Virus record (IMG/VR): IMGVR_UViG_3300022934_000260
Span: 1 to 20,198 of that record
Source: a virus
Reading direction: 5' to 3' (one strand)
Length of the DNA: 20,198 nt
Shown: one piece after another, positions 1,680-20,198 of the stretch
How the letters are laid out: the number at the start of each line of letters is the position of its first letter
Position numbering within the stretch: the first letter of the stretch is position 1
Position numbers and translations under genes: made by a program
The notes under the pieces: model-generated
Told to the model about the DNA's origin: nothing
What the model saw: only the letters and a program-made list of their open reading frames with translations
Database searches by the model: none

Positions 1680-3113
1680 CTAGCCTTCGCGCAACTGCAC
1701 CTCACGTACAGTCACGAAGTTTGCCGATCCACTGATCACATCCGTTGCGCGTGTGCTGATTGCCGTGTTTGTGATCAAAATCTGCGCTCTGTAGTACAGG
1801 TCACCTGGTAGCAGCGTGTAGGTGTAACTGACTCGATCACGCTGACTTGGATCGATCATCCAGAACTCAGCAGTTGCTTCGGCCTGCTCTGCGGTATTGA
1901 GCAACAAGCGGAGCAAATTGCTTGTACCAACACTGGCGAGCACCTGATCAGCAAGTTCACCAATTTCGCTGCGCGGCGTGATATTCGCATTGTCGTATGG
2001 ATTGGTGCCAGCATCTAGGCTCGCATCGTCGTAATCTGGACCGTAATCGGCAAGGCTTCCTGATGTTCCAATGATGTCCGCTGAGTTGTATGTCAGGTTT
2101 TCTTCAACACCAACGAAGGAGCGTGCATTGGCATAATCATCTCGATTAACGATTGCAGTTGTGCGTGTGTCGACGGACTCACGCTCCACCAAAAAATCCA
2201 AGCTGCCACCGCCTTGAATCAGCGATTTGACGCCATCAAAGAACTGATCGCCAAGTCCCGTCGTGTCGATCTCGTTGCCGTTAAGGCTAAGCTCCCAGCT
2301 CTGCAGCGAACACTCCAGATTCCATTCATTGACCAGCCTTAATTCAATCAAAGTATCTGGCAAAGGATCGCTGAGCTGCACCTCAGTAATTTCAGTCCTT
2401 GGTGTGATATTTGCATTGTCATACGAACTTGCGCCAGCATCCAGACTTGCATCGTCGTAATCCGGCCCATATTCCGAAAGGCTGCCCGATGTTCCAACGA
2501 TGTCGGCTAGCTCATAACTGCAAGATTCAATAACATGCGTAATGCACTGTGCATTCGCATAAGCGCTCAAGCCAGCGCCTTGGTCAATCTTGACGGCATC
2601 AGCAATGGGCAGAAAATCATCAAAATCAATGTTTTCGCGTGTTGCGTCTGACGCTCCAGCCAAAGCAGCAGCCCTAGTTCTATAAAACGAGAGCCTGTTT
2701 AGTTGATCGACGTGTACATAAAGCTGGTTTCGATACGGTTGCTGGTCTGCGGCTGCTGGTTCAATGACAAGAGCATCACCGTCTTGGGTTGTCAGCGGTT
2801 CGTTTTCCTCTGTACTCAACCACCTGAACGGCCTCAACAAGCTTGGCGGATAAGCGACGCTGTAGTCCACAGCTTCGGCCCAGTCCTGATGCTGATACGT
2901 GTTGGCGTACGTCGGGACCAGCCGCGAATCGAAAAGATAGTCGTTAGGCCAGTTGTCAACGCTAGTAACCTCGACAAGATCACCAGTTCTGAAGCTTGGC
3001 GCTGAAAGTAGAACGATATTCTTGTCTTGATTTAGGTCAGTAACTTCAACGACAACAGGTGTTGGCGCCGAGCGGTTGAGGATGACCCTGCCATTGCTGC
3101 CAAGGACTGCCAT
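1680..3113 (-). CDS. Tail structural protein with tube-like C-terminus and duplicated Asp-rich module (477 aa)
   Basis: Probable virion protein without a named family. Residues 1-180 form a beta-rich N-terminal part (GSNGRVILNRSAPTPVVVEV, PSFRTGDLVEVTSVDNW, LYVHVDQLNRLSFYRTRAAA). Residues 203-239 and 345-381 carry two copies of an Asp-rich module with SEYGPDYDDASLDAG or ADYGPDYDDASLDAG and YDNANITPR. From about residue 250 the sequence resembles the tail-tube fold: SLQSWELSLNGNEIDTTGLG, GGGSLDFLVERESVDTRTT, then LPGDLYYRAQILITN and SGSANFVTVREVQL. The second Asp-rich copy sits inside that domain. Asp-rich loops may bind calcium, which is a guess. It overlaps the preceding tube-like gene by TAATG. 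Confidence 0.6.
   Translation of the reverse strand: MAVLGSNGRVILNRSAPTPVVVEVTDLNQDKNIVLLSAPSFRTGDLVEVTSVDNWPNDYLFDSRLVPTYANTYQHQDWAEAVDYSVAYPPSLLRPFRWLSTEENEPLTTQDGDALVIEPAAADQQPYRNQLYVHVDQLNRLSFYRTRAAALAGASDATRENIDFDDFLPIADAVKIDQGAGLSAYANAQCITHVIESCSYELADIVGTSGSLSEYGPDYDDASLDAGASSYDNANITPRTEITEVQLSDPLPDTLIELRLVNEWNLECSLQSWELSLNGNEIDTTGLGDQFFDGVKSLIQGGGSLDFLVERESVDTRTTAIVNRDDYANARSFVGVEENLTYNSADIIGTSGSLADYGPDYDDASLDAGTNPYDNANITPRSEIGELADQVLASVGTSNLLRLLLNTAEQAEATAEFWMIDPSQRDRVSYTYTLLPGDLYYRAQILITNTAISTRATDVISGSANFVTVREVQLREG
1975..2515 (-). repeat. Two diverged direct repeats (about 115 bases each, 426 bases apart)
   Basis: Copies at 2401-2515 and 1975-2089 code for the ADI-V/I-GTSGSL-x-YGPDYDD module of the 477-residue protein. 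The offset is exactly 142 codons. The DNA copies are clearly alignable but differ at many, mostly synonymous, positions, so the duplication is not recent. Confidence 0.85.
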
Positions 3114-7900: not shown

Positions 7901-9003
7901 CCAAGCGTCTCTGTACTTCTGCCGCTAAACAATTTATATCTGACGTAATCTCCTCTGCTCAGGCTCTGGCTAGTTATGCTGCTTACAGTGCCAGACGCTA
8001 GTCCCCCCTGGGTTGTTGCATGTGCAATAATTCCAGACCTTGATGAGTAGTGGATATTCATTTTTTCTCGGCGGCTTAACTGCTCTTCGTCAATCGGACA
8101 GTTAATTTGAACGCGGCCATCCTTTGTTTTAGGTTTCATCTGGATACTTACAGCCGGTCGTATTGACGGGTTTATGCGATGAACTAAATCATTGCCAATC
8201 AAGCTGTAAACACCAAATGTAGTGTTTGAGCTTGGTTTATGAGTAGCGCAAAAATCAGTTTGTTCGCTGCCACCATAAAAAACACTGAATACATCTCCAG
8301 TTGAAGTAGTGGAAGACGATCCACCGCCGTTAGCGCGTTGGTCTTGTTCACCGCTGCGTCCAAACACTCGATCATCTTGGGTAATTCGACCGCCGTCCTT
8401 GCTAAAATAAATGGTTACGCGAGCTGCTTCTTCCGTCTGTGAGCTGTAGTTAAACTTGTAATTTTTTAGCGAGTTTGACCCAATTGCCCATAAGTCGTTG
8501 TCAACTTCTCCTAAAGTTGATTCACTCAGTAAAAACACAGCTCGCAACATTTGCGACGTGCCGAATGAAATAACTTGAGACCATATCAGTGGCATGTTGA
8601 CGCGAACGCCGCCAACCTTGGCGCCGCCGATTTCGCGTTTCGTGTAAATTAGGGGGATAATTTCCCCTAGCTTTGTAACTTGCTGTGTTGAATCAAAGCC
8701 AAAACGCGGCGCAAAATTAACATTACTTTGAACTGGTTCTTGGCTGATGTCGGTTGTTTTTATTTCGCCCGGTCGCCTTTGTTTTGGTATTGATGGCTTA
8801 AGCAGCAGTGATGCAGCGATCGAGCCAAGGCCAATCACAATGTTAATGATGGCAAGCGTTAAGGCAGTCTCACCCCCCGCCACTGGACCTTCAATCGGGT
8901 TGTCCTTCAGGTGCTGCCGTGCTGCAGCCTGAAACTCAATGAATTCGTCCTCGGTGATGCCGAGCAAGCTGCACAGGTAGCGATCAGATGGAAGCATGTT
9001 CAT
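4909..9003 (-). CDS. J-like tail tip / host specificity protein (central hub)
   Basis: A 1364-residue hub protein that closes the tail and probably contacts the host. The ATG at 9003 is preferred: it makes an ATGA junction with the peptidase stop. An upstream TTG at 9051 would overlap that gene by 52 bases. In order: N-terminal LCSLLGITEDEFIEF segment; a hydrophobic stretch at about 46-68 (ALTLAIINIVIGLGSIAASL); the hub domain starting near KLGEIIPLIYTKREIGG; serine/glycine-rich region; repeated YxI-xx-W-x-LAG modules at about 380-560; a beta-rich lectin-like region at about 660-830; then the conserved J-like part with LFPDVLLDLLTNERYGMGKF and the closing MRRVPDHTIKFKTTYDAIFA and a beta-sandwich. 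Hydrophobic stretches of this kind in J proteins may insert in membranes. Confidence 0.85.
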   Translation of the reverse strand: MNMLPSDRYLCSLLGITEDEFIEFQAAARQHLKDNPIEGPVAGGETALTLAIINIVIGLGSIAASLLLKPSIPKQRRPGEIKTTDISQEPVQSNVNFAPRFGFDSTQQVTKLGEIIPLIYTKREIGGAKVGGVRVNMPLIWSQVISFGTSQMLRAVFLLSESTLGEVDNDLWAIGSNSLKNYKFNYSSQTEEAARVTIYFSKDGGRITQDDRVFGRSGEQDQRANGGGSSSTTSTGDVFSVFYGGSEQTDFCATHKPSSNTTFGVYSLIGNDLVHRINPSIRPAVSIQMKPKTKDGRVQINCPIDEEQLSRREKMNIHYSSRSGIIAHATTQGGLASGTVSSITSQSLSRGDYVRYKLFSGRSTETLGNKMKVKNGKKGKTYQIVELSNTEQDEWNELAGTSGVTYNEGDQLTLAIDPQELLDLTELQAGERYQIQEKNPEANKEVINSFGDRNYQTTDDEFDLIAAPNLTSYIIGNKFYVDSSYDSLIADVDVNNCVAGRRYEITAIGSNMDEGWATSESGDGGRWARLAGALGTLSVEDSDNRDVPVEVGDIFTATDQSFINSMPNSADGRVKGYFGPAEVLRVWGNGRVRQVRSEQSLGDVSDAVASRQKTYDQALIVGEVYKIGTAYGVCVARTEGAFISEADELGDDAQNIEVDFYITEAGSCTIYPTGHLNKTGTDETQRETATSKDHILRVAQAVVTNTRPCIATEFGFRSVMGLRITNLCNFRDAKSFKFADTSYCTAFRNEKAERLDSQFYESSTITTSEQRYSFFTIQFKAADAADSDGDWQELGFTFGFAGETQQAQFNYLRLEFPTAKQRIFRFRPLAGFEIRSGTGTLYVLDARDGLYTPTLQATIGGELVKCEFNGYAITGSEKSSRFASRFSWNNFGNFNENDYDYTTKKLGNGEEDTEELFGLYEVDDATTIDGDTYQNYIDTYTKLAESFPYEEVKASAESGPEHEIVYVNEIVENPSPAPAYDNMALVGINIRSSQEWQQLAQFSGYIRQGIQAPQLRSDLAVGTISLFPDVLLDLLTNERYGMGKFVKDEMIDLDGFEDAANFNHRREYRFNGVIAEQSNLRQYAADISSTYLLYFAEINGKYTLKPYFSTDASGNFTAVDIKGLFTVGNIAEDSYEVSYLAPEEREPIQVAVQYRQERGSSDTNNEGVFSVVRSVLVREAGAAYDPFTTETLDMTDYCTTRDHAIDAAKFLIRMRRVPDHTIKFKTTYDAIFADIAPGDYIKVAMDATDYDQYNNGVVLDDGSLISTQSLSDSTYSVYAWNPTSGSDPANVTLTVSNGGTTASPTGIVFTEIVSNKASRTYQIERITAGEDGTFTIEALHMPVNNSGIPQVVVNFDNASSWEVS
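4915..4922 (-). promoter_or_regulatory. Strong ribosome binding site for the fibre gene
   Basis: GGGAGGTG lies inside the last codons of the hub gene. Seven bases separate GGAGG from the ATG at 4909, which forms TGATG with the hub stop. This site decides the fibre start: the in-frame TTG at 4924 would overlap the Shine-Dalgarno sequence itself. Confidence 0.8.
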
Positions 9004-9865: not shown

Positions 9866-12800
9866 GCCAGGCCAACCTTACGTCTTGATTTTACGCTATT
9901 CTGCAACGCTTGCAGCGTGAGTGCACGACCGCGTTCAGCAGCCTGCGCCATGCCTTGACGATGCTGCTCAGCGGTGACGTACTCGACATTGTTGATCACG
10001 CTGGATTCGTACCGCACATCGATCGGATTTGGGCTTGCCATCATCGCAAGGGATGTGCGTTCCACTTCGCGGATGCGGTTTGTCGTCATTGTATTTTGCT
10101 GTTTGATGAGCTGCTGACGAGTAGCTTCATTGCTACGCATTATAGTATTTTGCTGTTTAATGAGCTGTTGACGAGTAGTTTCATTGCTACGCATTACAGC
10201 ATCTTGCTGTTCGAGTTTGTCGCGAGTAGCGCTATCACGCAGCACAGCATCCTGCTGCTCGAGCTGCTGACGAATAGCCTCATTGCTGCGCAGCACAGCG
10301 TCCTGCTGTTCAAGTTGTTCACGAGTAGCGCTATCACGCAGCACAGCATCCTGCTGCTCGAGTTTGCTGCGAGTAGCGCTATCACTCATCACGGCATCTT
10401 GCTGTTTGAGCTGCTGACGAGTAGCGCTATCACTCATCACAGCATCCTGCTGCTCAAGTTTTTCGCGAGCAGCGCTATCACTCATCACAGCATCTTGCTG
10501 TTTGAGCCTGTCACGGGTGGCGCTATCACTCAGCGCATCATCTTGCTGTTTGAGCCTGTCACGGGTGGCGCTATCACTCATCACAGCATCTTGCTGCTCA
10601 AGTTTTTCGCGGGTGGCGTTATCACCCATCACAGCGTCTTGCTGCTCAAGTTTTTCGCGGGTGTCGTTATTCGATAGCACCATGCCACTACTGAATGGCA
10701 TGAACAACTCAGGGCCGCGTTCACCGACGATGTAAGGCTGGTTTGCGTTGACGGGGCCACCGTTGGCGCGAGCACCGAATAGGCCAGCAGCATTGAAGGA
10801 TGACGGCGAGCTAAATCCTGACGCACCAGGCACGGCTTGATCAAAATTGCCCATATCTCCGAACTTAGTTCCGCCTGACAATCCTGCAAATGCCTTTGCA
10901 ATGCCAATTGCAATATAGGTTGCGATCATTCTTGCGCCTTCTTGCGCCAAAACCTGACCAACGCTTTTGAGCATGTTGGCAAAAACATCTTTAACTTTTT
11001 CGCTGCCTTCGATTAAACCTTGAATACCGTTGACGAGTGAACTTGAAATGGCACTTCCTACGCCTTGAGAAACGTTAATAGCAACTTGCTCAAGATCCTT
11101 GAGTGAATCTTGCGAATCGCTAATAAACTGCTGCAGCTTGCCTTGATCTTGCTTGAACAAACTGGCGAAATCCATTTTGAAAGCTTCTTGCAACCTTTCA
11201 TCTCTTGCCTCAATAGTTGCTAAATTTTCTTGATCCAGCCTATTTCTTTCGGCAAGGTTTAATAACTCTTCCCGCTGCCTTTCAGCAACGTTTGCATTTA
11301 TATTTGCTACAACATCTTCATGATTGAATTTAATTCTAAGCAGCTCGCGTTCAAGGTCATTTGACGCATTGCGTAAGTTAATTTCACGCTGCAATTGTTT
11401 CGCAATACGTTCACCGGCGGCTAATTGATCTTTCAATATATCTTCTGCGCTGGGTCCACGCCCTGCACGGCCGCCAGCAGTGCCACCGCCAGAACCGCCG
11501 CCGCCGACTGAAGGTTTAAAAGCCTCAGGTTCCTTATAAGTGCCATTGGCGCGTGCAATAGCCTCACGAATGCCAGCTTGGTCGAGAACATCAAACCCAA
11601 CAGCCTTGCCCCCCGCTGCCTTTGCTTGCGCCTCAACATCAGCAGCAATCTGACTGGCAGCAATTTCTAAGTTTACCCGAACGTCATAAACACCTTCTAA
11701 AGCTTCCAGCTGGCGCCTTAGCTCTTCGACTTCCTTCCTTTGTGCCTCTGTTGCTCTTTTGCTTGAAAGCGACGATTCGCGAAGTTTGTCTAGCTTGACA
11801 GCTGCTGCTTCAAGCTCAGCCTTTTTAGCGCTAACAGCATCTTTAAGTTCTGTTGACTCAACAGTTGAATCATTAAGCAGCTTGTTTAATTTGGCTTGAT
11901 CTGCGTAATACTTAATAACAACAGCAGAAAGACCAACAAAAGCTGCAGCACCCAACGCAATGGGATTTAGCAGTGCTGCCATGGCTCCAGCAAGGCCGCC
12001 AGCTCCTAGCTTGTAGGCCACCAATTCAATTAAAGGAGCTGCTGTCTTAAATGCCACTGCAAAGCCACCGACAGCGATGCCGGCGGCGGCAGCGGCAGCA
12101 CCAATGTCGCGTATTGGTTTGGGTAGCTCAGATGCAGCCTTCAATGTTGCATTCAGCCCATCAACTAATGGCTGCAATACAACAATGAACTTATCGCCAA
12201 TTGCGTTGGTGGTGTTCTCAACGTTACCACCTAGCACTTTCATGCTGTCAGAGAATCCACGCATCTCTTCGCGGACCTGTTCTGTTTTGCCTTGCGAGTT
12301 TTCGATTGTTTGAAACATGCTGCGAATCTTCTCTTCACTGCTTGCCAGCAATGCCTGGAATCCGCGCCCCGCTTCTTCGCCAAACAATGCCTTGGTTAGC
12401 TCAACGCGTTGGCCGACATTTAACTGATCGAGGCTACCCTTAAGCGCAAGAAGTACCTCGTCAAGTGGTTTAAGGTTGCCCTCTGCGTCTAGCACTTGAC
12501 TGCCTAATGTATCCATCGCTTTGGTCAGCATTGCGCTACCACGCGTGATCTCAAACAATGCTTCTTGGCTGCCGGATGCTGCAAGCTGCAGCCGATTCAA
12601 GCCAGTTGACAGCGATGTACCGGCTCGGCTGCCGCGAATGCCATTATCAGCAAGAAGGCCAATCGTTGCAGATAGATCGCCAATACTGATTCCAAGCGTT
12701 CGCGCACCTGGCGCTGCGTAACTCAACGCTTCGCCAAGATCAAGGATTGTCTGGTTTGAACTGTTAGCAGCTTGCACCAACGTGTCAACCACTGACGCGG

Positions 12801-14445: not shown

Positions 14446-14868
14446 TCAGAGTTCCTCGATGAATTCAAAGGTCACACGGACCTGTGTTTGGAAATAGCCC
14501 TCAGGTGATGCGGACACCACTTCAGGACCAATGGGTGCATCGAAGTAAACCCCCGACACAATAATTCGATTATACAGGTCGCGGATGCGCTTTGCTATCG
14601 TAAAATTAGCGCCAGCACCAGTGCCCTTGGGCGTAAAGATATTGGTGACGATGACACCAGTAATTCTGTTGTATGAGTTTGATGTTCCGCCAAGGCTTAG
14701 GTACTCGCCAGCACCGAAGTTCAGCAGGCATTGCACCCATGATGAATTAGGCGTTGGTGAATAGGATACGTTGTTAAATACGACGGGAATTGACGGACTG
14801 GATGCAAGCTCAGTGGCGAGCCTAGATTCAATCGTTGAACGTACGGTGTTTAGGTCTGCTGCGGCCAT
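14446..14868 (-). CDS. Tail terminator protein
   Basis: A 140-residue protein expected to form the ring that caps the growing tail tube and later docks to the head, as lambda gpU does. It starts with a helix (LNTVRSTIESRLATELAS), followed by PSIPVVFNNVSYSPTPNSSW, then VQCLLNFGAGEYLSLGG, a conserved ITGVIVTNIFTPKGTG strand-loop and the helix IAKRIRDLYN. It closes with YFQTQVRVTFEFIEEL. This arrangement is that of the phage tail terminator family (DUF4128-like). It lies directly before the tube gene. The junction (stop, two bases, ATG) suggests coupled translation. Confidence 0.8.
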   Translation of the reverse strand: MAAADLNTVRSTIESRLATELASSPSIPVVFNNVSYSPTPNSSWVQCLLNFGAGEYLSLGGTSNSYNRITGVIVTNIFTPKGTGAGANFTIAKRIRDLYNRIIVSGVYFDAPIGPEVVSASPEGYFQTQVRVTFEFIEEL

Positions 14869-15365
14869 TATCCTTGCCTCTTGATCTTTTCATAATGTGA
14901 TCGTACATCGGCTTGCAGTTCTTTGCCGATAAGATCAATCCATCCTGGGCCATCTGTCTGATGGCTACTTCCGCCGCCTGGTTTTTCCCAGTTTTCCACT
15001 GTACGTTCTGGATTGTATCGTTTCTCTTTTGTTAATCCAGAACCAGGAGCAGCGTTAGCTAGTTTTTCTGCATACGGCAGGTTGTTATGGATGCTGTAAT
15101 AGTTGCCTAGCTTTTCTTGACCAACAATGTAGTTATATCCTTTTGGAGGCGCCTCTTTTCCTCTATAGTCACCTGGCGGTGGTGGTGTACTGTTGCTTGC
15201 ATTTTCACCAATTTGCCAGCCAATGCGAAACCGACCAAGATCCACAGGACTTGCAGTCTTTAATTTGCCGTCCGCTTCAAGTACCGTCGTACGCAGTAAC
15301 TGCTCAACCTGTCCTTCCATGTAATCAGCAATTTTCGCCAGCTTGATTTCTTTTACCATCATCAT
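14868..15365 (-). CDS. HK97 gp10-like neck/tail-completion protein
   Basis: A 165-residue protein of the HK97 gp10-like group, which acts at head-tail joining or tail completion. Diagnostic stretches are ASPVDLGRFRIGWQIG in the first half and YYSIHNNLPYAEKLANAA in the middle. The family normally shows S/TPVDTGRLR-x-SW and an NxxPYAxxLE-type motif at these places. The C-terminus is a basic helix (KELQADVRSHYEKIKRQG). Three tandem ATG codons follow a TGAGGGC Shine-Dalgarno-like sequence. The third ATG at 15359 has the most usual spacing, so the start is uncertain by two codons. The stop shares bases with the next start (TAATG). Confidence 0.75.
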   Translation of the reverse strand: MMMVKEIKLAKIADYMEGQVEQLLRTTVLEADGKLKTASPVDLGRFRIGWQIGENASNSTPPPPGDYRGKEAPPKGYNYIVGQEKLGNYYSIHNNLPYAEKLANAAPGSGLTKEKRYNPERTVENWEKPGGGSSHQTDGPGWIDLIGKELQADVRSHYEKIKRQG

Positions 15366-15718
15366 GCCCTCAAAAATAACTGATACACAATTGCTTGGTT
15401 GGCCTGCTCCACCGTTTCAATCCGCACGATCTGATGCGTCACGCTACTGATCAGCACCTTATCGTCCAGTCCAGGCACTGCAGGCAATGCTGATGCTGCA
15501 ACCGTCAACTTCTTGTCATCACCGCGCACAAGGTCATTCACCTCCGCTGCGTTGACGTTTTCCAACACACCTTTGACCGTTTCAGTCGTAATCGTCTCAG
15601 TAGCTGTTCCAGTCGTCGGATTATAGGTGCCAAGACTCACTGATTGAATCGTGATGTCACCACCAAACTTGCCGATGGCTTTGTTGGCTACCTTTCGCAG
15701 TGAATCAGCAAGTGCCAT
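15362..15718 (-). CDS. Head-closure (head-tail joining) protein
   Basis: A 118-residue protein. The order is a short N-terminal helix (ADSLRKVANKAIGKFG), then strands (DITIQSVSLGTYNPTTGTAT), then a loop ending in KGVLENVNAAEVNDLVRGDD, then KKLTVAASALP and a C-terminal sheet (DKVLISSVTHQIVRIETV). This matches small beta-barrel head-closure proteins (Hc1, lambda gpFII or SPP1 gp16 type) that form a ring under the adaptor and block DNA exit. The next three genes are gp10-like, tail terminator and tube, the standard order after a head-closure gene. The start is coupled to the remnant gene by TAATG. The stop overlaps the next ATG (ATGA). Confidence 0.7.
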   Translation of the reverse strand: MALADSLRKVANKAIGKFGGDITIQSVSLGTYNPTTGTATETITTETVKGVLENVNAAEVNDLVRGDDKKLTVAASALPAVPGLDDKVLISSVTHQIVRIETVEQANQAIVYQLFLRA

Positions 15719-15854
15719 TAGGGATTCTCCAGTGCCGTTACCCGTGCTTCTAACAGTGTAAGCCTGTCAGTTGGTTCCCATCGGTTTGCAGCTGCAGATC
15801 AAAGTCTGCCCTGCGTTGCAGTGAGATATTGTGCTGGCCGGGTTGGACGCTCAT
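15718..15854 (-). pseudogene. Remnant of a phage structural gene (frame-disrupted, internally deleted)
   Basis: An ATG at 15854 opens a frame reading MSVQPGQHNISLQRRADFDL, then QLQ and a short tail, with a TAG at 15750-15752 after 34 residues. That beginning matches, by recollection, the N-terminus of a phage protein family normally of roughly 100 or more residues. Just downstream, a different frame reads NRWEPTDRLTLLEARVTALE and NP, a typical coiled-coil C-terminus. Its TAA at 15718-15720 forms a TAATG junction with the head-closure start. The second frame has no start codon of its own after its last upstream TGA. The simplest reading is that a deletion or indel fused the beginning of one gene to the end of the same or a neighbouring gene out of frame. 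The 34-residue peptide may still be made. Confidence 0.6.
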
Positions 15855-15872
15855 GGAATCAGTTTGCGGCGG

Positions 15873-16649
15873 TTAAGGTATCGCTGCCGCGAGATCGCTT
15901 ATCAGCGTGGTGACACGAGTGTCGAGTAGGGCGAGGTTTAGGGATTCGCCGATGGAGTAGAAGGCGAGGCGGGCATTGGAATAGTTTGCAATACTTGTGC
16001 CATTGCGATCCTCTGCAAATACGGCAGTGCTTGACGTGACGCCAGTGTAAGCAAGCTGAGTAAATGAACCTGAATTTGGCGATACGCGCCAGTCAAAACT
16101 TCCGGCGAGATTTGCACGGTTATGCCCGGCAAAAGCCCCTAATCCTGACGAAGGGAATGTGTTGGAACCGTTCATAAAGCCTATGTTCGAAGAAAACTGA
16201 AAGCCTATCCTGCATCCCTGGCTTCCGTTACCTACTAAGCATCCAATGAGCGTCCGCCCTGCCTGAAAGCCACTTGTTCTATAGATAGCTTGATGACTAT
16301 TGGAAGCGGCTGTGATTAGATTTGCGGCCAAATACTTCGTGCTCCCATCCCCCACCAGCCCCGTCTCCCTGTCGTAGTCCGCACCAACAAAGTTAAAGTT
16401 CGTCGGCGCAGTCCCAGCCAATGGAACCAATGCACCGGCCAGCGTCCTCGCACCAGCCAAGATGCAACTTGCCTTGATAGCACTCCAGATACCATCAGAC
16501 TTGCAGCCGACCACGAAGGCGTTGATGGCATCCTTCACGCCAACTTCCAGTGCTTGGCCGTCTGCGGTTTCAACTGCTGTGATGTAAGACTGTGCATCGG
16601 TGTCATACGCCGCTGCGAACTGATACGGGTTGATGTAGATGATGCTCAT
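15873..16649 (-). CDS. Putative virion fibre or adhesin-like protein (258 aa)
   Basis: A 258-residue beta-rich protein. Residues 1-75 form a helical N-terminus with VKDAINAFVVGCKSDGIW and KASCILAGARTLAGALVPL. The segment NFNFVGADYDRETGLVGDG then leads into a domain of about 180 residues built from short strands, such as IYRTSGFQAGRTLIG and CRIGFQFSSNIGFM, ending in ARLAFYSIGESLNLALLD. This layout resembles concanavalin/LamG-like carbohydrate-binding modules found in phage and prophage structural proteins, judged only by eye. The start overlaps the 171-residue gene (ATGA) and the gene belongs to the same cassette as the collagen-like fibre. Binding to a host glycan is inferred. No catalytic residues are evident. 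Confidence 0.5.
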   Translation of the reverse strand: MSIIYINPYQFAAAYDTDAQSYITAVETADGQALEVGVKDAINAFVVGCKSDGIWSAIKASCILAGARTLAGALVPLAGTAPTNFNFVGADYDRETGLVGDGSTKYLAANLITAASNSHQAIYRTSGFQAGRTLIGCLVGNGSQGCRIGFQFSSNIGFMNGSNTFPSSGLGAFAGHNRANLAGSFDWRVSPNSGSFTQLAYTGVTSSTAVFAEDRNGTSIANYSNARLAFYSIGESLNLALLDTRVTTLISDLAAAIP

Positions 16650-17161
16650 GGCTGCAACGTATAAACGAGATCAAGGCGATGCGTTGCCATCAGCTCAGTC
16701 AGTTCGGCTACGTGGTCATCAGTCAGCGCCACCTGCCCTAGCAGCAACCAGATTGCGCCTTGCATTGCCTGCGGGTTGACGCGGTAGTTCATCGCGTCCT
16801 GGATGGCCGAGACAAACACCGCCAAAGCGCGAGCAAGCTCAGCCGTGGCAGGCATTCTGATCACCGCTTCATAGGTGGCGCTGCCCAGTAGATCTGAGTA
16901 GAACCCCACGTAATCCGGCTGCGGTGGTGCAGGCACTGGCAGCTCGATCAGCTCCCAACCTTGACGCCATTCACCAGCGGTCAAATCAACCGACCACTGC
17001 TGCCGAACGCTCCATCCTTCGGGTGCATCCGGCTTCGGCTCACGCACGATGCGCAACACTCGATAGCGCGGGTCAAGTGCAACGACAGGCTCATCATCAT
17101 TGCGCGGATAAGCCAGCACCTGCTCAGCGATGGAATCCCAAAGTGCGAAATTACTGCTCAT
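16646..17161 (-). CDS. Conserved phage protein, fibre-cassette associated (171 aa)
   Basis: Not recognised as a characterised family. The N-terminal half has a tail-fibre-assembly-like flavour: a DPRYRVLRIVREPKPDAPEG segment, then WSVDLTAGEWRQGWELIELP, then a proline linker APPQPDY. The C-terminal half is helical (ATAELARALAVFVSAIQDAM, AMQGAIWLLLGQVAL, DDHVAELTELMATHRL). It is soluble, without signal or membrane segment. It sits between the collagen-like fibre and a second fibre-like gene, and its stop overlaps the next start (ATGA). A fibre chaperone or a fibre-associated structural protein are both plausible. Neither is shown by a motif. Confidence 0.5.
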   Translation of the reverse strand: MSSNFALWDSIAEQVLAYPRNDDEPVVALDPRYRVLRIVREPKPDAPEGWSVRQQWSVDLTAGEWRQGWELIELPVPAPPQPDYVGFYSDLLGSATYEAVIRMPATAELARALAVFVSAIQDAMNYRVNPQAMQGAIWLLLGQVALTDDHVAELTELMATHRLDLVYTLQP

Positions 17162-17165
17162 GGCC

Positions 17166-17900
17166 TCAGCTCCGGGTGACGTAGAGGGTGACCTTCAAGC
17201 CAGCGCCTGCGGTGCCGCTGCCCACCTGGTCAATGTCGATCGTGATCTCGGCGTCATCCGCCAGGGCTGAATCTGAGATCACCGGAGGCGTTGCTGCTGT
17301 ATCGCTTGTTTTCTCTCCGTCGTCAATGCTCAGCTTCGTGCTCAACACCGACGTGCCAGCTTCGTTGATGTCAACGATCAACGCACTGCCAACTGGAGCG
17401 GTCGTGGCCGTGGCCTTTACTGCCGTTAGCGTGCCGGCAGTGGGCATCCTGAACGTGACCTTCGCGGTGCCTGTGGTGAGCGCCGTGGTTTCATCACTGC
17501 AGGCAATCACATAAATATCATCAGCCCCGACCCATGCTGTGTCGTAGTCGGTTCCGCTTGACTTCTTCAGCAACTGCCCTGTTGTTCCACCTGCGGGAAT
17601 CCCTACCCCGTCCGCGCCATCCGTGCCGTCAGCACCATCGGCGCCGTCAGCACCAGCAGGGCCTGTCGCGCCCGTTGCACCTGTTGGGCCTTGGGGGCCA
17701 ACCAGCGTGCCAAGGTTGTCCCAAGCGCTGCCGTCCCAGACGTAAAAGACTCCCGTGTCTTCCGCCTGGTAGACATCCCCCGTCGTGGCGCCGCCGGGAA
17801 GCGCGGCCTCATTGGCGACGGTGCCAAGTACATTCAGGGCACTGATTGACGGCCCAGTTTCGTCAAGAGCGCCCGTAAATGGATTGAACTTATAGCCCAT
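17166..17900 (-). CDS. Collagen-like fibre protein (probable head or neck fibre)
   Basis: A 244-residue virion fibre candidate. The N-terminus MGYKFNPFTGALDE is a common phage fibre anchor. Residues 28-67 hold a GDVYQAEDTGVFYVWDG-type module frequent in appendage proteins. Residues 68-100 form eleven uninterrupted G-X-Y triplets (GPQGPTGATGATGPAG, then GAD repeats), expected to make a collagen-like triple helix. An IPAGGTTGQLLKK linker follows, then a C-terminal beta domain of about 115 residues ending in KVTLYVTRS, probably a trimeric knob. A GGAG sequence precedes the ATG at 17900. It lies among neck genes and not with the tail-tip fibres. Decoration of head or neck is therefore inferred, with glycan or cell-surface binding possible. 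Confidence 0.75.
   Translation of the reverse strand: MGYKFNPFTGALDETGPSISALNVLGTVANEAALPGGATTGDVYQAEDTGVFYVWDGSAWDNLGTLVGPQGPTGATGATGPAGADGADGADGTDGADGVGIPAGGTTGQLLKKSSGTDYDTAWVGADDIYVIACSDETTALTTGTAKVTFRMPTAGTLTAVKATATTAPVGSALIVDINEAGTSVLSTKLSIDDGEKTSDTAATPPVISDSALADDAEITIDIDQVGSGTAGAGLKVTLYVTRS
17601..17699 (-). repeat. Collagen-like G-X-Y repeat, 11 triplets
   Basis: Codes for residues 68-100 of the fibre protein. Glycine occupies every third position for 33 residues. Alanine and aspartate dominate the other positions in the second half (GAD, GAD, GAD, GTD, GAD), and the DNA is correspondingly GC-rich and internally repetitive. Confidence 0.9.
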
Positions 17901-17902
17901 GA

Positions 17903-18106
17903 TCAGCTCCGTGCAACGGTCAGCAGGTTGCTGCTGCCGTCGTAGGTCATGTCCAGCGTGGCGACAACTTTGCCGCCGCTGCCGCCGCGCTTGAATTCAA
18001 CCTTAGTCAGGTTGCTGCCGGTGTAGGTGTTTTGGATGAAGTCATGCGTCGGGATTTCTAACCCGTCTCGCATTACCGCATCACCGCCGCCAATGGATAG
18101 CATCAT
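17903..18106 (-). CDS. Small phage structural protein of unknown function (67 aa)
   Basis: A 67-residue protein coupled to the adaptor gene by an ATGA overlap. Two consecutive ATG codons make the start uncertain by one residue. The second half (NLTKVEFKRGGSGGKV then VATLDMTYDGSSNLLTVAR) looks like paired beta hairpins around a GGSGG turn. This pattern recurs in small phage proteins that accompany fibre or decoration genes, by recollection. It lies directly ahead of the collagen-like fibre gene, 2 bases away, so it may be a fibre-attachment or base piece. No specific function can be assigned. Confidence 0.6.
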   Translation of the reverse strand: MMLSIGGGDAVMRDGLEIPTHDFIQNTYTGSNLTKVEFKRGGSGGKVVATLDMTYDGSSNLLTVARS

Positions 18107-18663
18107 GACCGTCGAATAGCGATGTTGCCTGGTCCACTTATTCTAAGCCCAGTTAGGTAACGCTCAACCATTGGCGGGATGCGATCAGCACCAGTAGCGC
18201 CGTATTGATTCGGCGTTACATCAAGGCTGCCGATCTTTACGTTTTTGTAATCCTCCAAGCCTGACAGCCCAATGCCTTCAACATTGTTGTGCAGGTAAAC
18301 AGCAAGCTCAACCTGAGCACGTTTAATCTGTTCAGGAATTTCTGTATCAGTAAAATAATCCGTCGTAATCCTAAACGGAAAACCTACAGCATAAGTGTTG
18401 ATATAAGTGTCGGGTTTTCTAACACCTGTGCGCGGCCACTGCAATAATTGCGTGTCTGTTGCCCTAGCGCCTAAAAATCGTTCACGGTCTAAGCGTTGCG
18501 TTGCATAAGCCAATGAACGTCGGCGCGTGTCATCATTGCCGCTGCCCCAATGAACAACGTCAGCGTTTTTGATCATCGCATCAACGTAATCATTGGCTTC
18601 CGCTTCCGTCGCATAACTGTTGGCACTTGCTGAACCAACCGTTGCATCAATTGTAATCGCCAT
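18103..18663 (-). CDS. Head-tail adaptor, DnaT-like (Ad1/gp6-like connector)
   Basis: A 186-residue protein that probably forms the first connector ring below the portal. The N-terminus ANSYATEAEANDYV, the helical segment RRRSLAYATQRLDRERFLG, the QWPRTG motif and the later helix EQIKRAQVELAVYLHNN are the recognisable landmarks of the family often annotated as DnaT-like ssDNA-binding protein. In phages that family acts as a head-tail adaptor. Its position between the capsid genes and the head-closure and tail-terminator genes fits. The start overlaps the 53-residue gene by 17 bases. The stop overlaps the next ATG (ATGA). DNA binding as such is not supported here. The name reflects sequence history. 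Confidence 0.75.
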   Translation of the reverse strand: MAITIDATVGSASANSYATEAEANDYVDAMIKNADVVHWGSGNDDTRRRSLAYATQRLDRERFLGARATDTQLLQWPRTGVRKPDTYINTYAVGFPFRITTDYFTDTEIPEQIKRAQVELAVYLHNNVEGIGLSGLEDYKNVKIGSLDVTPNQYGATGADRIPPMVERYLTGLRISGPGNIAIRRS

Positions 18664-18808
18664 CAGGTTTCTCCGGCTTGGGCTTTACCGTCCTCCGCCT
18701 TTTTGGCTTTGGCTCTGTTGTAATTTTAGGCTCATTACTAGAAAGAGAGGCCACTGCCGAAGCAGCAGCCTCACGTTCCCGCAGTCGCCGGAATCCAAAC
18801 ATTCCCAT
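18647..18808 (-). CDS. Small basic proline-rich phage protein (53 aa)
   Basis: Not recognised as a named family. The ATG at 18808 overlaps the stop of the preceding gene (TAATG). A second in-frame ATG lies two codons later. The frame runs 53 residues to a TGA at 18647-18649, ending 17 bases inside the adaptor gene. The protein opens with a basic helix-like stretch (MFGFRRLREREAAAS) and ends in a lysine/proline-rich tail with KPKRRRTVKPKPEKP. The coupling at both ends and the biased but coherent composition suggest a translated gene, not chance. Small proteins with FGFRRLRER-like starts and KPKPRR tails occur between capsid and connector genes in related phages, as I recall. Their role is unknown. 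DNA or capsid-inner-surface binding is a guess. Confidence 0.6.
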   Translation of the reverse strand: MGMFGFRRLREREAAASAVASLSSNEPKITTEPKPKRRRTVKPKPEKPDGDYN

Positions 18809-19221
18809 TAGTGGGTGCCGCTGGGCATGGAGTACACAGTAACAGCCTCGGAACCGCTTGCAATAGCAGTGACGCGACCGATGAACTCACGCGTAGATGC
18901 AGCAGCAGCAGTGTTGGTGTTGTCTGCATCAAGCGTCACGCCAGTGCCGCCGACAAGGGTCATAGCGTGAGTAGCAGCAGCTTGGTTCCGCAGGATGATG
19001 CGGAACGTAGTGCCAACACGCACGCCGGAACCGAGTTCAGCAACGATCGCAGCTGCCGTAGCAGTGGTCACGTTGCGGCCAGCGGCAGGAGTCATCACCA
19101 CCAGACTGTTGACCGATTGAGCAGCGGTCAGGGTGGTGGCCTCATCGGAGGCAGCAACCAGCTCAATGCTGGCGTTCATGCGGTCAAAGACCGGTTGCTC
19201 CAGTTCAAAGATGGATGCCAT
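18808..19221 (-). CDS. Putative head decoration protein
   Basis: A 137-residue protein, rich in Ala and Thr, low in charge and without Cys, consistent with a small beta-sandwich. It lies 11 bases downstream of the capsid gene, the usual place for a decoration or cement protein. The ATG at 19221 is preceded by a TGAGGC Shine-Dalgarno-like sequence at good spacing. The C-terminal half (GTTFRIILRNQ, then GVTLDADNT, then GSEAVTVYSMPSG) alternates hydrophobic and polar residues as beta strands do and resembles capsid-decoration domains seen in many phages. No catalytic motif, signal peptide or membrane segment is visible. The role rests mostly on position. A small structural protein of another kind cannot be excluded. 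Confidence 0.55.
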   Translation of the reverse strand: MASIFELEQPVFDRMNASIELVAASDEATTLTAAQSVNSLVVMTPAAGRNVTTATAAAIVAELGSGVRVGTTFRIILRNQAAATHAMTLVGGTGVTLDADNTNTAAAASTREFIGRVTAIASGSEAVTVYSMPSGTH

Positions 19222-19232
19222 TGTTAGTTGCC

Positions 19233-20198
19233 TCAGAAGTTGGAAGTAACAGTACCGCGCACGATGCCAATGTTCTTGGTTTCGTACACTTTGCTCCAGT
19301 TACCAACAGTGGCCAGCTCAGTGCGACCTGGGTTGATGGTGGCGCTGGTCCAGCGTGCGCCGACCGGGTGGTAGACGTAATGCAGGTCGATCGACATAGC
19401 ATCACTCTTGGCGAGGATGTCACGATCAGTTTCGGTCTGCATCGCCAGCTGCTCACCCGAGGCAATAGCGCCTTGAGTGAAGAAGTACACCGGATAGTCA
19501 GTGCTGGTAGGAACCAGATCGTCAGACACAATCACACGCATACCCATGTAAGTGGGAACCTGCATGTTGCCTTCATATGCCATTGCGGTGGAGCCACCGA
19601 AGGCATCGGGCATGGCGGAATCAGCGGTGACGCGTGCCTCGGCAGCGGTCACATAATCAATGGCCTTGCGTTCAACGAGGTCGTAGAACACAGCGCTGTG
19701 CATCGCAACAGCAGCCAGCTTTTCGCCTTGATCACCCAGCAGGCTGCGGGCCTTGGCGACTTGACGGGGGCCAAGGGTTGTAGCGCCGGAGGTGTCAAAA
19801 CGCAGCGCGTTGAATGCAGGGCTGTCGCCACCGGTCAGAGCGCCGAAGCACCCATCAACGCAAGCGATCAGATCCTTCTGGCGTTGGTTGGCGACGTACT
19901 CAGCGACCTTGGCGCCGATAGCGGCCATGGGATCGGAACCAGCAGCCAGAGCCGCAAGGTCACGAGCCTCAAAAGCACGACCACGATGCAGGATCACACC
20001 GACTTGCTTGTCGGCTTCGATCTTGCCAGGCGTCAGGCTGGAGCTGTCGGACAGCACCTCGAAATCACCGGAAAGGTTCGCTTTCCAGAAAGGCACTTGG
20101 ATGGTGTCACCACCTTCGGTGGCATTGAGTTCTGCCATCGGTTGCACCACACCGCTAGCCAGGAAGGCATCACGTTGGGTGGTTTGCTCAATGACGTA
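19233..20198 (-). CDS. Major capsid protein, HK97 fold (5'-partial)
   Basis: Builds the icosahedral head shell. The reading frame is open to the right edge of the window and starts outside it. The GTG at 20150 is internal: the codons before it read on as YVIEQTTQRDAFLASG, which fits the N-terminal arm of this family. In all, 321 residues are visible. The order of hydrophilic arm, then an RGRAFEARDLAAL stretch, then a helix with VAEYVANQRQKDL (spine-helix-like), then beta-rich P- and A-domain-like sequence (YMGMRVIVSDDLVP, SIDLHYVYHPVGARW) matches phage coat proteins of the Phage_capsid_4 type, as recalled. Its place ahead of decoration and connector genes supports the call. The portal, protease and scaffold genes would lie further right. 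The family assignment is from memory. The capsid role is strongly supported by context. Confidence 0.85.
   Translation of the reverse strand, partial: YVIEQTTQRDAFLASGVVQPMAELNATEGGDTIQVPFWKANLSGDFEVLSDSSSLTPGKIEADKQVGVILHRGRAFEARDLAALAAGSDPMAAIGAKVAEYVANQRQKDLIACVDGCFGALTGGDSPAFNALRFDTSGATTLGPRQVAKARSLLGDQGEKLAAVAMHSAVFYDLVERKAIDYVTAAEARVTADSAMPDAFGGSTAMAYEGNMQVPTYMGMRVIVSDDLVPTSTDYPVYFFTQGAIASGEQLAMQTETDRDILAKSDAMSIDLHYVYHPVGARWTSATINPGRTELATVGNWSKVYETKNIGIVRGTVTSNF

Follow-up and report, generated by a model that had tools for sequence, protein, structure and literature searches.

The classical detachable tip of phage fibres is the gp37-gp38 pair of T-even phages, in which a separately encoded protein caps the long fibre and sets the host range. 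In phage S16, the attachment of gp38 relies on short helices at a hydrophobic platform of gp37 (PMC9608196). In phages K1-5, SP6, G7C and Klebsiella phages, a T4gp10-like anchor holds a second receptor-binding protein of variable body by a short conserved N-terminal peptide of 7 to 29 residues (PMC6872550). The neck fibre gp82-gp81-gp80 of cyanophage A-1(L) is a chain of trimers, each docking an N-terminal segment into the preceding C-terminal domain; its tip is carbohydrate-binding, yet showed no binding to the host tested (PMC10966104). Small two-domain fibre chaperones such as Pam3 gp25 and Mu Tfa have a variable N-terminus and a conserved helical C-terminus (PMC9608196). Here we describe a gene block in the IMG/VR virus record IMGVR_UViG_3300022934_000260 (20,198 bases, all of which we call the window), whose nearest isolates are the cyanosiphoviruses S-H1 and KBS-S-2A. 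Between the genes for the head-tail adaptor Ad1 and the head closure protein Hc1, the minus strand encoded in this order p67, the collagen-stem fibre coll244, the 171-residue protein hel171, the lectin-like protein lectin258 and a remnant of 154 nucleotides (nt) (Table 1). We consider it likely that this block specifies an accessory host-adhesion fibre made of interchangeable tag-and-socket parts.

As with the T4gp10-like anchors, the tagged genes of the block and its relatives join a short conserved N-terminal peptide to a variable body. Unlike there, the proposed socket is a C-terminal C1q-like knob, tags and hosts differ, and the bodies have lectin folds instead of being capsule depolymerases. 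As we read it, the cassette is the known short-peptide docking principle with another socket, other tags and other heads. With gp37-gp38 it shares a separately encoded adhesin on a long fibre, but it has an 11-residue tag and unrelated bodies where S16 gp38 uses short helices (PMC9608196). The A-1(L) neck fibre is likewise from a cyanophage, and its chained docking and carbohydrate-binding tip have proposed counterparts here. Like Pam3 gp25 and Mu Tfa, hel171 is a small two-domain protein encoded beside the fibre, with a variable N-terminus and a conserved, putatively helical C-terminus, but its kinship to them is indirect. In the SCRM01_023-025 cluster of Synechococcus phage S-CRM01, a knob fibre, an IINPFRF-tagged lectin258 relative and a 171-type gene stand side by side; unlike the window, S-CRM01 is a T4-like myovirus, its lectin gene precedes the 171-type gene, and the cluster is sited among tail-fibre genes.

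Putative tag-and-socket pairing

In the proposed fibre, p67 would form the base and would hold coll244 by its first 13 residues (..FNPFTGxLD), while the C-terminal knob of coll244 would grip the first 11 residues (..INPYQF) of lectin258. The coll244 tag and p67 would represent the same plug-and-socket design as knob and lectin258, one level below. We infer that these parts dock physically, that the knob is a trimer, that the ConA-like body of lectin258 binds a surface sugar and that hel171 serves as a chaperone which aids folding or trimerisation of coll244. Since only the short tags would be needed for attachment, whole heads could be swapped by recombination behind them.

The pairing of tag and knob was assessed in IMG/VR loci (numbered with L) fetched by the knob and by the lectin body, the best 80 matches for each. 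Across all loci, 110 genes encoded a full knob, which was C-terminal in every one. For the 108 knob genes with a gene downstream, the ..INPY.F tag opened the next gene in 70 cases and the second gene in 21, with 17 having it in neither; the resulting 91/108 compares with 46/2670 among other genes of at least 80 amino acids (aa). The 91 tagged genes comprised 67 non-redundant bodies in 20 clusters that were unlinked at E 1e-4 (the largest with 28 and 17). Ten tagged bodies screened against Pfam matched Laminin_G_3 (2), Gly_rich_2 (2), Fib_succ_major (1) and F5/8 type C (1) or nothing (4), and a LamG-type tagged protein gave weak matches to LamG domains of solved structures (best 0.012). Similarly, in S-CRM01 and phages MD05, Carli and Tiera the gene behind a knob fibre began within a few bases of it and opened with IINPFRF, IINPYVF, MMIQPSRF or LLNPWRF, and the bodies behind these tags differed from each other. 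Among 27 bacterial-genome loci with 25 assessable knob genes, the tag was found in the next gene in 16, weakly so in L292. The 136-aa fibre of L220 was barely more than tag plus knob. For the strings NPYRF, INPYRF and NPFTG we found no phage-fibre paper among the titles listed from the open literature searched, outside which lie most subscription journals.

The lectin258 body itself occurred in 132 genes. In loci fetched by the body only, 79 genes remained after exclusion of near copies: 20 had both tag and knob, 59 had neither, and mismatches in either direction were absent (0 and 0). For each of the 20 genes tagged NPY or GTGRF, one of the two genes upstream encoded a knob (20/20), compared with 0/59 of those with other tags (Fisher 3.8e-19, under an assumed independence that relatedness weakens). 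Both NPY and SWIIT tags occurred on lectin bodies that were 83% identical, and in 42 of 106 cases a gene and its nearest neighbour by body belonged to one tag class. At the sequence level, tag class tracked the upstream knob and not the body, with bodies assorting independently of tags.

A comparable association was seen one level below. Among 28 non-redundant p67-family genes with a next gene, that gene carried the strict NPFTG.LD tag in 24 cases, near forms in 3 and neither in 1. Conversely, 21 of 23 NPFTG.LD-tagged genes lay directly behind p67; in one of the two others the upstream gene call contained a frame error, and the other was a second copy. In L129 (ctOK67, 8165-8416), an 83-aa protein beside a p67 homologue carried three consecutive NP..G..LD-like tags and might in this way plug several sockets.

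Two comparisons place breakpoints at the ends of tags. Homology to S-H1 spanned most of Ad1 and p67 and ended at fibre codon 13, with 72% identity to coll244 over codons 1-13 and 23%, ungapped, over codons 14-40. DNA of L031 was 91% identical to the window in hel171, 97% in lectin codons 1-11, 95% in the remnant and 82% in the knob, but 67, 59, 37 and 75% along the lectin body. Homology ends or falls at the tag end in both. Such breaks, and the ATGA overlap starts of many genes, would also be expected if the tags were not docking peptides but a relic of recombination or translation, left by genes swapping at the site. We regard this as improbable: tag class follows the upstream knob rather than the body, and the tag codons varied synonymously (51 distinct 18-nt cores among 57), which points to selection on the peptide.

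Most receptor-binding proteins of phages from marine and fresh waters are annotated as 'hypothetical'. If tag and socket do pair, a recognisable knob with a short pattern next to it would identify the adhesin in uncultured phages. The pairing would also account for head transfer among siphoviruses, podoviruses, myoviruses and prophages, and a peptide together with purified knob would suffice to test ideas on cyanophage host-range evolution.

A further set of tags marked three adhesin slots, ..RPGF, ..VPGK and SWIIT (for example in L002, L004, L047 and L201), whose bodies included lectin, LamG-like and Gly-rich types. Their order was the same in all 27 loci with at least two of these tags, a few of which represent the same phage or contig. 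Tentatively, and with somewhat more doubt than confidence, we suggest an adhesin addressing code common to many kinds of phages, in which ..NPFTG.LD, ..INPY.F and ..RPGF/..VPGK/SWIIT would each have their own socket. Any tagged head would then fit any phage with the matching socket, and host-range modules could be recognised in the sequences of phages with unrelated tail types.

Predicted folds of fibre knob and lectin body

The collagen-like fibre of the original prediction was confirmed in coll244, which has a collagen-like stretch at about residues 68-98; it matched tail-fibre families in PHROG, and Pfam Collagen only under the family cut-off. Residues 1-124 were 78% identical to a fibre of podovirus S-SRP02, while the last 110 aa matched fibres of S-CRM01, Rhodobacteraceae phage MD05, Sphingomonas phage Carli, Polaromonas phage Tiera and a Microcystis phage. 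The knob behind the G-X-Y repeats was modelled from 51 sequences as a jelly roll with a predicted local distance difference test (pLDDT) score of 96.7. Its best fold match was the fibre head of phage 7-7-1 (Z 9.8, root mean square deviation (rmsd) 2.3, 104 residues aligned). A Klebsiella phage baseplate protein came next (Z 8.4, rmsd 3.0, 100 aligned), then collagen X NC1 (Z 7.8, rmsd 3.2, 103 aligned), and the heads of C1q and BclA ranked slightly lower. Foldseek returned no match at 0.001 or better for this model; the C1q-like reading comes from the second aligner, for which Z of 7-8 is common, together with the collagen stem. On this basis coll244 is predicted to end in a C1q/TNF-like knob, presumably trimeric. 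A T4gp10-like domain was not named among the coll244 Pfam matches or the listed knob folds, lists which are not proof of absence. Sequence searches of solved structures with knob, p67 and lectin body yielded nothing meaningful.

C1q-like heads are ligand binders in many proteins, and the knob could itself be the receptor-binding tip, the tagged proteins being separate. We think this very improbable. Mean column identity over the 51 knobs was 71%, a figure raised by best-match selection, and the bodies encoded next to them are unrelated, which is the behaviour of a socket and not of a receptor-binding tip.

For lectin258, the phrog_17104 match covered the full length (residues 1-258), and the model (54 sequences, pLDDT 86.8) predicted a ConA-like sandwich, in agreement with the earlier description as 'lectin-like'. 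The first ten residues were poorly ordered (pLDDT 63), which fits a free plug. The model resembled AbnA domain 4 (Z 15.4-15.7, rmsd 2.8-2.9, 179 aligned) and lectin domains of sialidases, as well as the tailspike of cyanopodophage Pan3 (Z 13.5, rmsd 5.2, 211 aligned), with a best Foldseek E of 1.1e-5. None of the 54 members matched a Pfam family for the lectin body, and the open literature searched contained no paper on the Pan3 tailspike.

Several points weigh against the tag-and-socket fibre. The tag pattern was defined after examples had been seen, and because the loci are related and the best 80 matches were retained, P-values and conservation are overstated. In 17 of the 108 knob genes the strict tag was missing from the next (up to three) genes. 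Seven of these had the variant ..IW.GTGRF, one IQPSRF and one INLYQL; two were gene-call faults, four contigs ended after the 171-type gene, and two, L256 and one S-CRM01 fibre, were true exceptions. The gene after the second knob fibre of S-CRM01 opens with MSFILGRYGN. Nine of the 25 bacterial knob genes also failed, with near variants in L289, L308, L309 and L311, doubtful gene calls in L301, L305 and L310, and no tag in L294 and L315. The structures of knob and lectin258 are models of single chains, and docking is inferred. Phage 7-7-1 gp015, the knob-like fibre nearest to coll244 among solved structures, has a neighbour, gp014, without a tag; as gp015 moreover has no detectable sequence kinship to the knob despite the best fold match, we found no solved structure that shows docking.

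A variable cassette between adaptor and head closure genes

We compared 102 loci with both Ad1 and Hc1, comprising that of the window itself (L006), those of two isolates and those of IMG/VR contigs, one contig being present twice (L041/L108). The loci were retrieved by Hc1 or Ad1 similarity with the best 80 matches per search, so that the share of loci with long inserts is not a population estimate. The gap between the two genes was below 800 nt in 90 loci and 2.3-4.7 kilobases (kb) in 12. Without L006 and L108, 89 of 100 loci had less than 0.8 kb and 11 had 2.3-4.7 kb; the relatives thus do not all have the genes of the window at this site. The cassette is missing or substituted in most relatives examined, and the insertion is variable. 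L012 was nearly identical to the window, and L092 and L096 encoded the same set of proteins. A p67 homologue was present in 5 of the 11 long inserts (L001, L002, L012, L031 and L047), the rest carrying other cassettes. In short gaps the site was mostly occupied by one to three tandem genes for mutually similar proteins of 74-86 aa (e.g. L055); the one scanned matches phrog_34166, of unknown function, and related proteins occur in Prochlorococcus phages, among them MED4-184.

Other fibre-like cassettes lay between Ad1 and Hc1 in L046, L064, L079, L092 and L101, and those of L046, L064 and L092 preceded 84-87-aa genes of the short-gap type. In L002 (KBS-S-2A) and L047 an endonuclease gene with endonuclease VII/HNH-type PHROG matches stood between adhesin slots 2 and 3. 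The 782-nt stretch holding it was 98.6% identical between the two loci, compared with 66-89% for other matches, and the endonuclease may spread the cassette in the manner of a homing endonuclease.

The original prediction had described a moron-type fibre cassette between adaptor and head closure genes. All genes that it named were found there on the minus strand, and the reading as a fibre or adhesin cassette holds, although p67, which belongs to the block, the N-terminal tags and the pairing of tag and knob had been overlooked. A moron in the strict sense was not supported. The genes of the block form a single operon: p67 overlaps the Ad1 gene by 4 nt at its stop, lectin258 overlaps hel171, and coll244 and hel171 start only a few bases past the preceding gene. 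Promoter-like sites in 14800-19300 were at chance (2 vs 2.7 expected, in a scan covering some promoter types only), and terminator-like sites numbered 6 vs 4.2 expected. The claimed GC-rich character proved weak. Guanine-cytosine content over the coll244 and hel171 genes was 57-61%, but the coat-protein end of the window was equally rich at 57-60%, and we dropped base composition as a mark of foreign origin.

Table 1. Genes and parts of genes of the cassette and its flanks, in window coordinates.
Feature	Position	Strand	Basis
Flank, head-tail adaptor Ad1/DnaT_2	18103..18663	-	phrog_477 3.4e-32; Pfam DnaT_2 1.7e-21
p67, proposed base and socket for the fibre N-terminal tag	17903..18106	-	phrog_26903 6.2e-18, function unknown
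coll244, collagen-stem fibre, 244 aa	17166..17900	-	gene call, Pfam/PHROG scans, relatives
coll244 N-terminal tag MGYKFNPFTGALD, 13 codons	17862..17900	-	S-H1 DNA homology stops at 17862
coll244 C-terminal knob, aa 124-244, C1q/TNF-like, proposed socket	17169..17531	-	model pLDDT 96.7 and fold comparison
hel171, probable fibre-assembly chaperone, 171 aa	16646..17161	-	homologue SCRM01_025; indirect tail-fibre-assembly kinship
lectin258, proposed swappable adhesin tip, 258 aa	15873..16649	-	phrog_17104 1.6e-70; ConA-like fold
lectin258 N-terminal tag MSIIYINPYQF, 11 codons	16617..16649	-	DNA 97% identical to L031, body 37-75%
Gene remnant, 154 nt	15719..15872	-	34-aa frame 15750-15854 matches start of L101 112-aa gene
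Flank, head closure Hc1	15362..15718	-	phrog_161 1.2e-22

Possible position on the phage particle

The fibre may be an ordinary side tail fibre whose genes are merely parked among neck genes, and we give this close to an even chance. The tail-fibre matches of coll244 in PHROG are consistent with it, as is the gene company of relatives of the cassette parts, which adjoin genes annotated as tail or tail-fibre in S-CRM01, S-SRP02, S-CBS4 and S-CBWM1; against it stands the fact that within this siphovirus group insertion has recurred at one and the same neck position. Alternatively, in line with the head or neck fibres of the original prediction, p67 might sit on the adaptor ring of a true neck or head fibre with the lectin tip projecting from the neck, which we consider possible though doubtful. 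All 12 long inserts followed Ad1 immediately, the p67 gene overlaps the stop codon of Ad1, and A-1(L) has adaptor-attached neck fibres with a carbohydrate-binding tip (PMC10966104). However, the relatives of the parts in tail-fibre clusters of other phages speak against a neck location, and the A-1(L) neck-fibre genes lie far from its adaptor gene, which makes gene place a poor guide to particle place. Profiles of knob, lectin body and p67 revealed no sequence kinship to A-1(L) gp80, gp81 or gp82 (at most 3.4 bits with filters off).

Accessory genes and further observations

The homologue of hel171 was SCRM01_025 (E 6e-9), which shares its C-terminal part with SCRM01_017, a protein matching tail-fibre-assembly families. 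As that match lies in the N-terminal and not the common C-terminal part, the chaperone step is soft, and hel171 had no direct Tfa-family match in Pfam, PHROGs (0.1) or NCBIfam (0.01). It is probably a fibre-assembly chaperone, judging from these homologies. The remnant was rightly recognised as such, for longer relatives exist. Its frame, reading MSVQPGQHNISLQRRADFDLQLQ..., was 55.6% identical over 27 aa to the 112-aa gene of L101 (E 1.6e-5), whose family takes in phrog_1084 and phrog_3304 ('L-shaped tail fiber protein assembly'), and L220 has a 59-aa form. At its far end, the remnant weakly resembled the final stretch of adhesins (11 aa, E 0.005). The 95% identity in L031 indicates that the decay predates the split between window and L031.

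Two repeats were seen elsewhere in the window. A 477-aa tail-region protein (1680-3113), without a PHROG match at 0.01, has an internal duplication in which GTSGSL..YGPDYDDASLDAG..YDNANITPR.EI occurs twice. The 3' part of the tape-measure gene (10192-10653) contains 9.6 copies of a 48-nt repeat coding for LEQQDAV.SDSATR-like repeats.

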